Origin: Deltaproteobacteria bacterium
GTDB lineage: Bacteria > Desulfobacterota > Desulfomonilia > UBA1062
NCBI GenBank assembly: GCA_017992605.1
Contig: JAGOOG010000010.1
Location: 1 to 64,000, forward strand
Reading direction: 5' to 3'
Length of the DNA: 64,000 bases
Shown here one piece after another: positions 35,912 through 42,412 of the stretch. The notes under the pieces are model-generated. The model worked only from the letters and a program-made list of their open reading frames with translations, was not told where the DNA came from and did not search any database. Positions within the stretch are counted from its first letter, which is position 1; each line of letters begins with the position of its first letter. Both the position numbers and the translations under genes were made by a program.

Positions 35912-36285
35912 TGATGTGATCCCACAGGTTCAGCGAACTCGGACAGGGATTTTTCGAAATCGCCCTGTTCAATGTCTTTGAGCAGATTCACCGTATTGGC
36001 GGTTACCCCCAGGAGCAGCACCGACGTGCCGACCCGGACCAGCGCCAGGGTCGCCTTGCTGCCGACTGATACCTGGCCCAGCACATCCAGGCCGAAGGTT
36101 TTCCTCGCACGCGCCACCGGCCCATAGCGCTTGATGACCCATGCGATCCCGAACATGAGGGCGATGACAAGCAGAAGCGAGAAGGCGGCTCTCAGGCCGG
36201 TACCGGCCATACCCCCCTCTGCCGCGAGGAGCTCTCCCGCATGCCCGAGCACGAGCACTGCCAACATCCAGGAAAATCGCTTCAT
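35908..36285 (-). CDS. fliO: Flagellar biosynthesis protein FliO
   Basis: 125 residues: a signal-like N-terminus ([16 protein letters not shown]), one membrane span ([20 protein letters not shown]), then a cytoplasmic domain with [20 protein letters not shown] and [13 protein letters not shown], the FliO pattern. It aids FliP complex assembly. The ATG at 36285 overlaps the fliN stop by ATGA; the longer frame upstream is a shadow of fliN. Confidence 0.88.
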
Positions 36286-36776
36286 GCAAGCCTCTTCACC
36301 CTCTCGAGGGGGCTGACGATGTCCGTTATGCGGATGCCGAACTTCTCGCTGACCACCACCACCTCGCCCCGGGCGATGAGCTTGCTGTTGATGAGGATGT
36401 CCAGTGGTTCTCCGGCCAGCCTGTTCAATTCGATGACCGACCCCTGGCCGATCTGCAGAAGGTCGTTGATCAGCATCCTTGTCCTGCCCATCTCCACGGT
36501 CACCTCGAGGGGGATGTCGAGGATGAAGTCGAGGTCCTTGGACGGGCCTGCACCGAGCCTTGTCTCCTCGAGCTCGGTGAAGGTGGCCTTCTTCGCATCC
36601 TTCTCGAAGGGCTTGCCTCCGTCGATCTCCGCCCCCGACTCCAGGGCCTGGGCCCACTCCTCGGCCATCTTGTCCTGGTCGACGTCTGTCCCCTTCTTCT
36701 CTTCGCCGCTTCCGCCCATGAGCTTGTCGATATCGTCCTGGCTGAGCGTGCCGCCTGTCTTGTCGTCTAGTGCCAT
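36282..36776 (-). CDS. fliN: Flagellar motor switch protein FliN
   Basis: 164 residues. The N-terminus LSQDDIDKLMGG resembles the FliM/FliN CheY-binding-type peptide. The SpoA domain (about 80-160) has LDFILDIPLEVTVEMGRTRM, GSVIELNRLAGEPLDILIN and GIRITDIVSP. FliN forms the C-ring base. It starts 10 bp after fliM and is coupled to fliO by ATGA. Confidence 0.95.
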   Translation of the reverse strand: MALDDKTGGTLSQDDIDKLMGGSGEEKKGTDVDQDKMAEEWAQALESGAEIDGGKPFEKDAKKATFTELEETRLGAGPSKDLDFILDIPLEVTVEMGRTRMLINDLLQIGQGSVIELNRLAGEPLDILINSKLIARGEVVVVSEKFGIRITDIVSPLERVKRLA

Positions 36777-36786
36777 AGCCTCCTCC

Positions 36787-37776
36787 TTAGTAGAGCTTCC
36801 TGTCGATCACGTTCATTATGTCTATCGCGAGGGTATCCTTTATCTTTCCCGGCCGTGCATGGAACTTGGGCAGGTTCTGCACGTTCACCACGAGCGGGTC
36901 GTTGATGTCCTTGTCCAGGAGCACCACGTTGCCCGGTTTCAACGATGCGAGATCCCGGGGCGAGATTGTGCTGCGACCGAGCTCCACACCCACATCCACG
37001 TACACGCCCATGAGCTCCTGCTTGAGCCGGCTCACCCAGGCCCCATCGACGCTCGCCTTCTCCTCGGAGTGGAAGGTCGCATAGAGCCTGTCCCGTATGG
37101 GTTCGATGAGCATGTACGGCAGGCACACCATTATGTTGCCCGTCATCTCGTCCATCTCCACCTCGAACTGGACAACCACGATCACGTCCTCGTTGGGAAT
37201 GATGCCGGCGAACTGGGGATTCATCTCGGAACGGACATAGTGCAGCTCCAGTTCGTAGACGGGCTGCCACGCGTTCACCAGCTCCTTGATCGCCGAATGG
37301 ACGACCTTGTGGAGCATGCGCTGCTCGATGGCCGTGAACTCCCTGCCCTCCACCTTCATGGTCCCGGCGCCGCGGCCCCCGAAGAAGCTGTCGATGAGGG
37401 CGAACACGAGTTTGGTCTCGACGATGACCAGCGCATTGCCCCGCAGCGGGTCCACACGGATGATGTGGATGCTCGATGGCACCGGCAGCGACCGCATGAA
37501 GTTTCCGAACTTGATGGTGTCCATGGAGACCGGGGTGATATCCACCATCTTCCTGAGCATGCTCGACAGCGTGTTCCGGAAGAAGCGTGCAAAGCGGTCG
37601 TGGATTGCGTCCAGCGAGGGCATCCTCCCCCGGACGACCTTGTCCTGGGCGGCAAAATCGAACCGCTGGAACTGTCCTTCCTCGGCCTGAGGCATGGCAG
37701 TCTCGGTGACGATCTCCCCGCCGACGACCCCTTTCAAGAGGGCATCAACTTCTTCCTGGGTCAGTATCTGTCCCAT
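36787..37776 (-). CDS. fliM: Flagellar motor switch protein FliM
   Basis: 329 residues. The N-terminal ILTQEEVDALLKGV is the CheY-P-binding peptide. The middle domain has RVDPLRGNALVIVETKLVFALID (split) and the GGRG torque-ring motif. The C-terminal SpoA domain has VYVDVGVELGRSTISPRDLASL. Standard length. It starts 9 bp after fliL. Confidence 0.96.
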   Translation of the reverse strand: MGQILTQEEVDALLKGVVGGEIVTETAMPQAEEGQFQRFDFAAQDKVVRGRMPSLDAIHDRFARFFRNTLSSMLRKMVDITPVSMDTIKFGNFMRSLPVPSSIHIIRVDPLRGNALVIVETKLVFALIDSFFGGRGAGTMKVEGREFTAIEQRMLHKVVHSAIKELVNAWQPVYELELHYVRSEMNPQFAGIIPNEDVIVVVQFEVEMDEMTGNIMVCLPYMLIEPIRDRLYATFHSEEKASVDGAWVSRLKQELMGVYVDVGVELGRSTISPRDLASLKPGNVVLLDKDINDPLVVNVQNLPKFHARPGKIKDTLAIDIMNVIDRKLY

Positions 37777-37785
37777 TTCATAACC

Positions 37786-38334
37786 TCACTGAACCACGAA
37801 TTCCGTGAAATAAACCTGGGTCACCTGTCCCGAGGTCAGGTACCTGTTGACCGCGGAAACGATCTCGCGCTTGAGCATACGCTTGCCCGCCACCGTTGCT
37901 ATGTCGTCAAAGGTCTTGTTCGAGAGTATCATGAGGATCTCGTCGCGGATCTGGGGCAGCCTGCCGGTGATCTCCCCTTCCACGGCGTGGTTGTCCGTCT
38001 CGAGCTGAATGACCGCCTTGAGATAGCGCTGTCCCTGGGCATCAGCCAGGTTCACGATGAAAGGATCGAGCATCTTCATCGGACCGGCTGAACCCGCTCC
38101 CTCTCCGCCGTGTCCTTCGGAGCCTTTGGCCACCGCCTGCTCCTGCCTCGCACCATGGCCCTCTTCTGAGCTCCCCGGTGCCTTCATCTTGGGGGCCAAG
38201 AGCAGGAAATAGCCTGCAGCAGCCCCGCCAAGGACGAGCACGACAGCGAGCACGATCACGACGAGCATCACCGGAAACTTCCTTTTCGGCTGTGCTGCCT
38301 GTTCCTTTTTTTCTTCCTTTTCCTCACCTGCCAT
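37786..38334 (-). CDS. fliL: Flagellar basal-body protein FliL
   Basis: 182 residues: a charged N-terminus (EEKEEKKEQ), one membrane span (FPVMLVVIVLAVVLVLGGAA), an acidic/Gly linker, and the periplasmic FliL domain with LDPFIVNLAD, RYLKAVIQLE and the C-terminal VTQVYFTEFVVQ. It supports stators under load. AGGAGG lies before the ATG. It follows the second motB gene by 9 bp. Confidence 0.93.
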   Translation of the reverse strand: MAGEEKEEKKEQAAQPKRKFPVMLVVIVLAVVLVLGGAAAGYFLLLAPKMKAPGSSEEGHGARQEQAVAKGSEGHGGEGAGSAGPMKMLDPFIVNLADAQGQRYLKAVIQLETDNHAVEGEITGRLPQIRDEILMILSNKTFDDIATVAGKRMLKREIVSAVNRYLTSGQVTQVYFTEFVVQ

Positions 38335-38343
38335 AGGGCCCTC

Positions 38344-39063
38344 CTAGATTCGGTCTTTCAACAGGATGATCTCCACCCGCCTGTTTTTCTGTCTGCCCGT
38401 CACGGTTTCATTCGTGGCAATGGGCTTGAGCTCTCCGTACCCGGCGACGCAGAACCTTCCGGGGGGCATGTCGAGACTGTAGACGAAGAAATCGGTTACC
38501 CGGATGGCCCGTTGCAGGGAAAGCGTCCAGTTGGAGCTCTCGCTCCCGACGTCATCAGTGTGGCCTTCGATGGATATGGTTACACTGGTGCCCCGGATGT
38601 TCTGCGCAATGGCCCCCAGTAAGGCACCGGCTGCCTTCTTCACCTCGGCCGAACCCTCGGCGAAGAGGACGTCCCCGGGTACCCGGATGGCGAGCCCTCG
38701 GTCCGTCTCGACGACCTCGAACAGGTCGAGCCCCCGGGGGGCAACCTGGCGGGTGACCTGGTCCCTCAGCGAGAGCATGATATTCCTCTGCAGACCCTCG
38801 CTGTCGAGCTCGATGATCCTGGGCTCGGGCTTGACAAGATTGTGCTGGACCTTGGTCTCATGTTCGTAAGGGAACTCGAGGGGGCCCGCCACGGATCTGA
38901 AGAACCCGAACGATTCCTGCAGGGTCTTGCTGTCCATGGAGCTCATGGCGATGATCATGACAAAGAAGGTGAGCAGCAGCGTGACCATGTCGGAAAACGT
39001 GGTCATCCAGCCCAGGCGATCGGGCAGTCTCACGTAGACGGTGTTGATGTCTTTCTTTGCCAT
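38344..39063 (-). CDS. motB: MotB-type stator protein with intact proton-channel Asp
   Basis: 239 residues. The membrane segment TFSDMVTLLLTFFV contains Asp25, the residue that carries protons in E. coli MotB (Asp32). The OmpA-like peptidoglycan-binding domain (from about 130) has ISIEGHTDDVGSESSNW, LSLQRAIRVTDFF and VAGYGELKPIA. The ATG at 39063 overlaps the stop of the other motB-like gene by ATGA, so they are made in step. It is therefore the likely energising partner of MotA. Confidence 0.92.
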   Translation of the reverse strand: MAKKDINTVYVRLPDRLGWMTTFSDMVTLLLTFFVMIIAMSSMDSKTLQESFGFFRSVAGPLEFPYEHETKVQHNLVKPEPRIIELDSEGLQRNIMLSLRDQVTRQVAPRGLDLFEVVETDRGLAIRVPGDVLFAEGSAEVKKAAGALLGAIAQNIRGTSVTISIEGHTDDVGSESSNWTLSLQRAIRVTDFFVYSLDMPPGRFCVAGYGELKPIATNETVTGRQKNRRVEIILLKDRI

Positions 39064-39854
39064 CACTGCTCTTCCAGTTCGAAGTTGAAGCCCTTGTAGA
39101 AGAAAATGGACCTTCTCCACTCCTGGCGTGACTGTGTGACTTCATCGAGCCCGACATCGTCCGGCAGCTTGCCCACGATGGTTATCTCCACCCGCCTGTT
39201 CACTCTCCTGCCGTCTTCGGTTGCATTGCTCGCAATGGGCCTGCTCGAGCCCATGCCGTATGCCGTCAGCCTGCCGCCCGGGACGTCCCTCTGCTCGAGA
39301 AAGGCCAGGACGGCCAGCGCCCGTGCTGCGGACAGGCCCCAGTTGGAGTTGAACGGGGGTGTTTCCACCGGGATCGAATCCGTGTGGCCGGTGATGACGA
39401 CCGGGTTGTCGATCCGGTTCAGGATTCTCGCCACTGCGGAAAGCACCCTCGTGCTCTCCCTGCTGAACCCGTCGGTCTCGCCCTCGAAGAGGATGGACGA
39501 CTTGATGGTTATCGTCACGCCGAGCTTCCCTTCACTCACTGCGATACTGCTGACGGCCCCGGTATTGTTCATGGTGTCCTGAATGTCCTTGAGGCTCATG
39601 GGCCCGCCCTGAACGGGTGGGCTCTGGGGCAGGAGATTCCGGGCATCTTCCGAAGAAAACGGACTCCTCCCCCCTGGCAGCACGCCGAAGCTCCCCAGTA
39701 TCGACCCGATGGCAAGCCTCTGCCGCTTGCTGTCCACAATGCTCATGGACGCAAGGACCACGAAGAAGGTGAGCAGGATGAGAAACAGGGAGCAGTAGAG
39801 CATGATCAGGGTGTTCCTCGGAGGCTCGACATAGACTACCTTCTTCCGTGCCAT
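39063..39854 (-). CDS. MotB-like OmpA-family protein lacking the proton-channel Asp
   Basis: 263 residues, same layout as MotB: an N-terminal span and an OmpA_C domain (VVITGHTDSIPVE, SNWGLSAARALAVL, YGMGSSRPIASN). Its span reads LYCSLFLILLTFFV: the residue aligned with the essential Asp of the next gene's SDMVTLLLTFFV is Ser22, and no acid lies in the span. It cannot conduct protons in the known way. It lies between motA and the true motB. It may be a structural stator subunit, a mixed-dimer partner, or a basal-body ring protein. Confidence 0.85.
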   Translation of the reverse strand: MARKKVVYVEPPRNTLIMLYCSLFLILLTFFVVLASMSIVDSKRQRLAIGSILGSFGVLPGGRSPFSSEDARNLLPQSPPVQGGPMSLKDIQDTMNNTGAVSSIAVSEGKLGVTITIKSSILFEGETDGFSRESTRVLSAVARILNRIDNPVVITGHTDSIPVETPPFNSNWGLSAARALAVLAFLEQRDVPGGRLTAYGMGSSRPIASNATEDGRRVNRRVEITIVGKLPDDVGLDEVTQSRQEWRRSIFFYKGFNFELEEQ

Positions 39855-39857
39855 GCC

Positions 39858-40637
39858 CTACTCTCCTCTCGGCCGCCCCACCACCTGCTCGCGCATGGCC
39901 GGTGACAGGAACGAGTGGAGTTTGCGTTCCACGATCCTCGGGTTGTCTCCCGCTGAGATGGACATGATACCCTCGATGATCATGCCCTTTTCCAGTGCCT
40001 CTTCCCGGGAGCGCATGGTGAGTTTGCCCGCCATGGGCAGGGCGATGAGATTCGCCATGACCGCTCCATAGAAGGTGGTTATGATGGCGACAGCCATGGC
40101 CGGCCCGATCGTCGACGGATCGGACATGGACTGGAGCATCTGCACGAGACCGATGAGCGTACCGACCATGCCCATGGCCGGCGCAAAGGTGCCCATGGAG
40201 TTCAGGATGTCGGCCCCCCTGATGTGCCGCTGCTCGATGTGCTCGATCTCCGTCTCCAGGATCTCCCGGATGGCCTGGGGTTCGAGTCCATCGATGACGA
40301 GTTCCAGGCCCTGCCTGAAGAAGGGATCTCCGAGGTCCACGGCCGCGCTCTCCAGCGCCAGGATCCCCTCACGGCGCGCCCTCGAGGCGAAATCGACAAA
40401 GGTCGGTATGAGGCCCTGCGCCTCTCGATGCTGGGTAAAGAACACGTTCCTGATGACGCCGAATACGCCGAACACATCCCTCATGGGATAGTTGATGAAG
40501 ATGATGCCGAAGGTGCCTCCGATCGTGATGAGCAGGCTGGGGATGTTCACGAACAGCGTCAGCGGTCCTCCTGCCACGATCCCCATGAGGACCAGCCCGA
40601 ATGCCACCAGCACGCCGATAATCGTCGCAAGATCCAT
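39858..40637 (-). CDS. motA: Flagellar motor stator protein MotA (PomA-like)
   Basis: 259 residues with four membrane spans: DLATIIGVLVAFGLVLMGI, LFVNIPSLLITIGGTFG, and GTFAPAMGMVGTLIGLVQML plus AIITTFYGAVMANLIALP. The cytoplasmic loop between spans 2 and 3 carries charged residues (REGILALESA, DVGDPF-like). This is the PomA/MotA class common in Desulfobacterota. It is the first gene behind the sigma-54 promoter at 40686-40701, 38 bp downstream of the predicted start. A GAGGAG SD is present. Confidence 0.95.
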   Translation of the reverse strand: MDLATIIGVLVAFGLVLMGIVAGGPLTLFVNIPSLLITIGGTFGIIFINYPMRDVFGVFGVIRNVFFTQHREAQGLIPTFVDFASRARREGILALESAAVDLGDPFFRQGLELVIDGLEPQAIREILETEIEHIEQRHIRGADILNSMGTFAPAMGMVGTLIGLVQMLQSMSDPSTIGPAMAVAIITTFYGAVMANLIALPMAGKLTMRSREEALEKGMIIEGIMSISAGDNPRIVERKLHSFLSPAMREQVVGRPRGE

Positions 40638-40685
40638 GAATGTACCCCTTGCTCCTCGCAGTTATGAAATCACGAACCAGTGAAA

Positions 40686-40701
40686 AGCAAGGGACATGCC
40701 A
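40686..40701 (-). promoter_or_regulatory. Sigma-54 promoter of the motA-fliR operon
   Basis: Minus strand TGGCATGTCCCTTGCT: GG and GC are separated by exactly 10 nt, as in TGGCAC-N5-TTGCW, with one mismatch (T for C). The start is predicted near 40675, about 38 nt before the motA ATG. It would need RpoN and an enhancer-binding activator of FlrC type; neither gene is in the window. Confidence 0.75.
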
Positions 40702-40841
40702 CGAGATGGCTTGCTCGCAACCTATTGATATTGTTGGTGAGTGGGTCGGCAGGAGGTAACCAGATCATGGTGCCATGGGTCATAAATTTGACGCCCTCGA
40801 TCCCTGTGACCGAAAGGCGAGAGAGGTGGTCAACCCGTTTC

Positions 40842-40875
40842 CGGGCCCCTCCCCGTGTCAGGGAGCGGGGCCCGG
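40842..40875 (-). terminator. GC-rich hairpin downstream of flgE
   Basis: CGGGCCCC/TCCC pairs with GGGA/GGGGCCCG around a CGTGTCA loop (with a 2-nt bulge), 32 bp after the flgE stop on the minus strand. It is very stable but lacks a T-run, so termination would be Rho-dependent or partial. The 269-bp gap 40638-40906 holds this hairpin and the motA sigma-54 promoter; no flbD-like gene was found there. Confidence 0.4.
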
Positions 40876-40906
40876 ATGAACGGGCTTCATCACGTGAGTA
40901 TACCCG

Positions 40907-42412
40907 TTACCGCTTCAGGTTGATGAGCTCCTGGAGCATGCCGTCCACTGTGGTGATGATCCTCGAGTTGGCCTGGAAGCCACGTTCGGTGGTGATCATC
41001 TTGACGAACTCGGCTGCGATGTCCACGTTGGACTGTTCCAGGGAGTTGGGGGCGATCCTCCCGAGGCCATTCTCACCGGGGTGGCCGGTGATGGCGTCGC
41101 CCGACTCGCGGGTCGCCGACCAGAGGTTACCGCCCACCTTGAACAGGGCCTGCTGATTGTTGAACTTGGCCAGGCCCACACGGTAGAGGTTGAGGATCTG
41201 GCCGTTGGAGTAGTGGCCGGTCATGATCCCGTCGGTGCCCACCGAGATGCTCTCCAGGAAGCCGGTGCCGTAACCGTTCTGGGTCTGGAAGACCGTGGTG
41301 GACGAGGATGCGTACTGGGTTGAGGTCAGGGCCTGGGGCTCCCAGGTTGAGGTGGGAAGCCCCCCACCGACAACGTCCGCCACCGTGGTTCCGCCGGCAG
41401 CCCAGGTGCCGTTGGTGCTTCGGGTCCCGAACTCGGCCGAGACGACCTGGTCAACACCCGCCACGAACTGGGCCGTGAACTGCGGGTATCCGTCGGTGGA
41501 GAAGCTCGTGGCACGGGTCCAGGTGGCCGGGTCCGTGGGATCATTGCCGGAACCGTCGTACACGAATGCGCTCATGGCCTCCAGGGAACCGCTCTGGGCG
41601 TCATACGTCATGGTGCCGCGCATGAGCACCCCTTGGGCGGAGGTTCCTGCAAAGTCCGCCCTCATATCGTCGCTGGGATTGCAGGTAATGATGTATTCCC
41701 AGGAGTTTTCGAGGTCGATGGCACCGTCATCATATTCACTGGTATCGCTCATCTTGTCATAAATGACGGTGATGTCATGGGAGTTGCCCAGGGCGTCATA
41801 GACCCTGATGGAGGTCTGGTAGCCGTAGGCCGCATCCCCGATGGGTTCGGTGGCAGTGGCGTCCCAGGCATCGAAGAGACTGTCCGAGTTGGAGGTGTCC
41901 TCGCTGTCCAGGTTCGTGACGGCCGTGACCGATCCCGTGGGCTCGGGCGGCGAGGTGAAGGCGCTCAGGCGTATATCCTGCAGGGTTCCCACGTCGTTGC
42001 CGGTGTCGTCCAGGGCCCAGCCCCTGGCAACGTACCCTTCAGGGTTGACGAAGAAGCCGTCCGCGTCGAACCTGAACTGACCGGCCCGGGTGAAGTATTC
42101 GGTCTCCGAGTCCTGGGGGGACACGATGAAGAAGCCGTTACCGCCGATGGCCAGATCGGTGGCCGATGAAGTGGATTCGAAGGAGCCCTGCTGGAACAGC
42201 GTGTCAATGGCGGACAGAGATGCCCCTCGGCCGATCTGAGCCGTACCTGCCGAGGTCGCGACCGACTGGGCCAGGACGTCCTGGAACGTGGTCCGGCTCG
42301 ACTTGAAGCCGATGGTGTTCACGTTGGCGATGTTGTCGCCGATGACGCTCATGGCGTTACCGTTGGTTGAAAGACCGCTGATACCCGAAAACAACGAACT
42401 GGATATACTCAT
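40907..42412 (-). CDS. flgE: Flagellar hook protein FlgE
   Basis: 501 residues. The N-terminus SSSLFSGISGLSTNGNAMSV and GDNIANVNTIGFKSS are the rod-hook signature. The FlgE motifs FFIVSPQDSETEYFTRAGQF and the C-terminal LEQSNVDIAAEFVKMITTERGFQANSRI (split) confirm it. The central D1-D2 region is larger than in E. coli FlgE (402), giving a longer hook subunit. It follows flgD by 21 bp. Confidence 0.93.
   Translation of the reverse strand: MSISSSLFSGISGLSTNGNAMSVIGDNIANVNTIGFKSSRTTFQDVLAQSVATSAGTAQIGRGASLSAIDTLFQQGSFESTSSATDLAIGGNGFFIVSPQDSETEYFTRAGQFRFDADGFFVNPEGYVARGWALDDTGNDVGTLQDIRLSAFTSPPEPTGSVTAVTNLDSEDTSNSDSLFDAWDATATEPIGDAAYGYQTSIRVYDALGNSHDITVIYDKMSDTSEYDDGAIDLENSWEYIITCNPSDDMRADFAGTSAQGVLMRGTMTYDAQSGSLEAMSAFVYDGSGNDPTDPATWTRATSFSTDGYPQFTAQFVAGVDQVVSAEFGTRSTNGTWAAGGTTVADVVGGGLPTSTWEPQALTSTQYASSSTTVFQTQNGYGTGFLESISVGTDGIMTGHYSNGQILNLYRVGLAKFNNQQALFKVGGNLWSATRESGDAITGHPGENGLGRIAPNSLEQSNVDIAAEFVKMITTERGFQANSRIITTVDGMLQELINLKR

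Follow-up and report, generated by a model that had tools for sequence, protein, structure and literature searches.

What part a MotB protein can play without its ion-binding aspartate is the question raised by this locus. The window, which is the whole 64,000-nucleotide stretch of deltaproteobacterial DNA that was analysed, carries on its minus strand a flagellar operon ordered fliK-flgD-flgE-motA-motB1-motB2-fliL-fliM-fliN and continuing to fliP, in which a sole motA (39858..40637; PomA/MotP-like, 259 aa) adjoins two motB genes. The hook protein gene flgE (40907..42412) lies upstream within this operon, and fliL (37786..38334), fliM (36787..37776) and fliN (36282..36776) are also members of it. 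The upstream paralogue, here MotB1 (39063..39854, stop codon included; 263 aa), is joined to the downstream MotB2 (38344..39063; 239 aa from its ATG) by an overlap of one base: the stop TGA at 39065-39063 and the start ATG at 39063-39061 together read TGATG. An earlier note on this DNA had described the two genes as coupled by ATGA; the overlap is real, while the ATGA is not. No terminator-like site was found in 38200-41000, and the gap of 269 bases between flgE and motA (40638-40906) holds no minus-strand reading frame of 40 aa or more, so no flbD-like gene is seen there.

The two paralogues differ at the ion site itself. The helix segment of MotB2 reads T-T-F-S-D25-M-V-T-L-L-L-T-F-F-V and that of MotB1 M-L-Y-C-S22-L-F-L-I-L-L-T-F-F-V, such that a gap-free alignment anchored on LLTFFV sets MotB2 Asp25 against MotB1 Ser22. 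A separate alignment to Clostridium MotB (6YSF/8UCS) returns the same register, with the Asp of the 6YSF helix at that very position. A change from Asp to Leu was considered and ruled out, since the ungapped register gives Asp to Ser. The membrane-helix core of MotB1 (Y20-V32, YCSLFLILLTFFV, 39759..39797, minus strand) is free of charged residues, as is the span as a whole, which bears out the earlier note on an Asp25 downstream and the lack of any acid in the upstream span. It was equally right that both copies retain an OmpA domain: both exceed the Pfam cut-off, MotB1 with 60.4 bits for PF00691. The MotB_plug match is clear in MotB2 (50.1 bits, cut-off 24) and borderline in MotB1, which scored 21.8 bits when proteins were scanned and 24.5 bits when the genome was. 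MotB1 has a single N-terminal membrane helix with the MotB motif LLTFF (residues 15-55 in the AF2 model), and its model resembles the periplasmic domains of MotS, MotB and PomB. Of the parts of a MotB, MotB1 has the OmpA-type domain and the helix but lacks the ion-binding Asp, which MotB2 has.

The Asp-less MotB1 is real and not a sequence error. The latter would have been indicated by relatives that keep an Asp upstream, and 69 of 71 non-redundant motA-motB-motB' loci from Desulfobacterota are Asp-less in the upstream copy (S53 A10 G3 T2 N1 D2 in the Asp column), with an Asp in the downstream copy at all 71. All 18 genomes of the same family that were compared, the source genome counted, have tandem MotBs with the Asp missing upstream and present downstream. 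Across all scorable tandems, the upstream copy lacks the Asp in 70 cases and has it in 18, the downstream copy has it in 89/89, and so do the 52 of 52 single MotBs that were checked; a lone MotB that seemed to be the sole exception proved to be an upstream copy at a contig end, whose neighbour lies beyond the contig. Wherever both genes are present the Asp copy follows the Asp-less copy, mostly at a spacing of -4 to +3 bases. Of 395 Desulfobacterota genomes sampled, at least 44, from at least 17 families, showed an Asp-less upstream copy in a profile search that was built from Asp-less copies and whose best matches were read locus by locus; this is a lower bound rather than a prevalence. A scan of contigs, whose pattern included the Asp-less motif and was hence biased towards Asp-less copies, recovered the tandem in records labelled Desulfobacteraceae, Desulfobacterales, Desulfatiglandales and Desulfotignum, and in one contig labelled Candidatus Sumerlaeota. 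In the last (L075), again ordered motA-motB-motB', the upstream copy lacks the Asp and its OmpA domain is degenerate; both transfer and mis-binning are possible origins. For MotB1, dN/dS lies at 0.14-0.21 among the better-separated pairs, near the values for MotB2, and is higher but unreliable for pairs with few differences.

What the Asp-less copies have lost and what they have kept is informative. Asp-bearing copies have a Trp at -6, Thr or Ser at -3, the Asp at 0 and usually Thr or Ser at +3. The trio of T/S at -3, D, and T/S at +3 is missing altogether in 64/70 Asp-less copies and complete in 17/18 Asp-bearing upstream copies, so the loss of the Asp is accompanied by that of the neighbouring Thr residues and the Trp. 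Since the PomAB structure has Na+ coordinated by PomB T21 and D24, the equivalents of positions -3 and 0, it is the residues of the ion path that were lost together. Position 0 of the Asp-less copies is Ser or a similar small residue and never an acid, and none of the copies scored has a charged residue in the span. The packing core is kept, with FF in 69/69 Asp-less copies and mostly L or I elsewhere in the core, and the helix is the most constant part of the protein (its mean entropy is 1.35 bits, whereas the OmpA core has 2.03 and the linker 2.81). In Desulfobacterales loci the wall-binding Arg of LSxxRA has become Met (19/69 Asp-less copies), in a few lineages the GHTD motif is lost, and in both cases the membrane helix is unchanged; a few lineages have a degenerate OmpA domain (L069, L075). 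As the helix is conserved though the wall-binding domain decays, the simplest reading is that tight contacts with other protein chains constrain the MotB1 helix, of the sort to be expected in the middle of a MotA ring.

Possible histories of the Asp come from quick trees without a secure root. On a tree of upstream MotBs from which the helix motif was removed, 16 Asp-bearing copies form one well-supported clade, while two more (L110 and L152) are placed singly among Asp-less copies; on the MotA tree these two fall inside well-supported, mostly Asp-less groups. Such trees require at least three changes between D and non-D for the upstream MotBs and at least two for MotA, and either one early loss with a few regains or several losses may underlie them. 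Recent gene conversion as the source of the L110 Asp was ruled out, the helix DNA identity being only 55/75. The pairs of the 16-member clade have no adjoining motA, and their readable flanks mostly place them after flgH-flgI. A second type of tandem, in which both MotBs have the Asp and no MotA is alongside, was seen at twelve loci downstream of putative flgH-flgI, these two genes being identified from the look of their sequences.

The MotA of the locus is PomA-like, with the conserved Pro residues of the 5:2 stators MotA/MotB and PomA/PomB and with the sodium-site threonines of TM3-TM4: T160, T187 and T188 are the equivalents of PomA T158/T185/T186, and the Na+ threonines of PomA are invariant in 68/68 MotAs. 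Sodium drive of the stator is predicted on this basis. An acid in TM3 or TM4 of MotA that might compensate for the missing Asp was sought and dismissed, as the only acidic columns, 172-173, lie at a helix end or in a loop. In six genomes that are 97-100% complete, the tandem pair accounts for the only MotB_plug matches (E <= 0.01), and one MotA was found at E <= 1e-4. The source genus also encodes an ordinary MotA-MotB pair at another place in its genome, and most other family members examined have no such second pair.

It is against this background that the best reading, to which we give even chances, is that MotA5-MotB1-MotB2 assemble as a mixed unit that has a single ion site. The earlier note had raised such a mixed dimer with one Asp, and it is the best-supported reading because there is one MotA gene, the genes are coupled, the helix is a fixed MotB-type helix, the partner bears the Asp wherever both genes are present, and the six genomes yielded no other stator. 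MotB1 and MotB2 would pair with each other within a single MotA pentamer, and MotB2 would supply the sole ion-binding Asp. MotB1 would take the second axle position, packing against MotA and MotB2, and would shut the ion path on its own side, while its periplasmic domain and tail may help to anchor, plug or place the unit. The ring would then make five ion steps per turn instead of ten, probably with Na+, and a one-site unit would have half the ion cost and do roughly half the work per turn. The sequences themselves show that the Asp is missing, that the helix signature persists, that the two genes adjoin with no Asp-less copy on its own in any complete locus, and that several genomes yield just one MotA; from these we infer the mixed dimer, the lone ion path, the number of steps and the kind of ion. 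Covariation among MotA, MotB1 and MotB2, computed from an effective 26 sequences, spoke neither for nor against this reading. Counted against this reading are the 16 upstream copies of the separate clade, which retain the Asp and have no MotA alongside. Moreover, in PomAB one Asp sits engaged and the other disengaged, and stators of known kinds are proposed to use the two by turns (PMC10374538), so a one-site unit might stall, in which case a MotB2 homodimer would do the work.

It is possible, though unlikely, that MotB1 instead acts mainly in the periplasm as an anchor, scaffold or assembly factor, comparable to MotY/MotX or MotK/MotE, with its C-terminal tail binding the rod, a ring, FliL or a wall partner. 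The tail is the feature that speaks for such a role. In MotB1 it is FFYKGFNFELEEQ (39066..39104, minus strand), modelled as a weakly predicted hairpin (250-253, 256-259), and under a strict pattern a short aromatic tail of the Y-K-x-F-x-F type (for example YKGFNF, YKKFDF or FKGFLF) ends 64/88 upstream MotBs and none of 88 downstream or 52 single MotBs. Since it is found on upstream MotBs with and without the Asp, the tail ties Asp-bearing and Asp-less upstream copies together as one family, and it hints at a partner that is not common to MotB2. There is some precedent in Cereibacter, whose MotB2 is reported to be bound by additional proteins of the periplasm (PMC10954123). The OmpA-type MotY of the Vibrio MotX/MotY T-ring, a periplasmic accessory of a Na+ motor, is likewise reminiscent of MotB1, but MotY matches the OmpA part only, whereas MotB1 has near its N-terminus the MotB-type inner-membrane helix that accessories of the MotY type lack. 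Against such a role, a simple anchor would drift in its membrane helix, yet this is the most fixed part and carries the MotB packing motif, and the wall-binding Arg is lost in Desulfobacterales. The scaffold ring that the earlier note offered as an alternative for the Asp-less copy leaves the fixed membrane helix poorly explained, while the upstream-specific tail leaves room for a periplasmic partner.

A rather improbable scenario is that the paralogues build separate units, a working MotA5-MotB2(2) and a MotA5-MotB1(2) that would be a non-conducting decoy, vying with the working units for places at the motor and so tuning torque or leak. That one MotA gene serves both MotBs, and that MotB1 retains a MotB-type helix and the MotB fold, would fit such a decoy. 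Aquifex aeolicus likewise has a single MotA gene ahead of two for MotB (PMC4525482, PMC4987623), but there both MotBs are conducting, and each of its MotB helices functions as a chimera with MotA alone (PMC4525482); those two helices are 97% identical, whereas here the upstream helix is without an ion path. However, the tight gene coupling makes near-equal expression likely, which would be costly for a pure decoy, and strict pairing in at least 17 families suggests joint function. The gliding machinery AglQRS of Myxococcus also has two distinct MotB-type subunits for its one pentamer-type subunit, and whether these mix in dimers is an open question there; both are described with an Asp and they power gliding rather than a flagellum, in contrast to the Asp-less MotB1 (PMC9389320). 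Both MotBs have Pseudomonas MotD and Bacillus MotS among their closest curated or structurally solved relatives, although all scores for the Pseudomonas MotC/MotD and Bacillus MotP/MotS families fall far below the family cut-offs. These systems have one MotB-type subunit per MotA. Finally, decay of a duplicate, or a sequencing artefact, might be suspected in MotB1 from the loss of its ion-binding Asp and the degenerate OmpA domains of a few lineages, but this is highly improbable given its retention across genomes and families with intact frames and low dN/dS, and a sequence error or pseudogene is ruled out on these grounds.

MotB2 is an ordinary MotB, and MotB1 shares its helix motif and OmpA fold. 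A structure paper of 2023 calls the MotB Asp universally conserved, and our search of the open-access literature, with subscription papers and preprints outside its scope, found no report of a natural Asp-less MotB. As MotB1 can readily be mistaken for an ordinary MotB in annotation, the Asp-less site provides curators with a clean marker. The finding is of direct consequence for the counting of ions by 5:2 motors, current models of which take two equivalent Asps as alternating. A natural one-Asp unit, if true, would test the need for a second Asp, the factor that fixes how many ions a turn consumes, and the scope for a division of labour between the two axle chains. That many Desulfobacterota carry, beside a normal MotB, a second and ancient MotB copy without the ion-binding residue suggests motor units with one ion site rather than the textbook two. 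More tentatively, a stator with a mixed-dimer axle and a single ion site, fixed early in Desulfobacterota and passing five ions per turn rather than ten, may serve these low-energy bacteria as a lower-cost gear.
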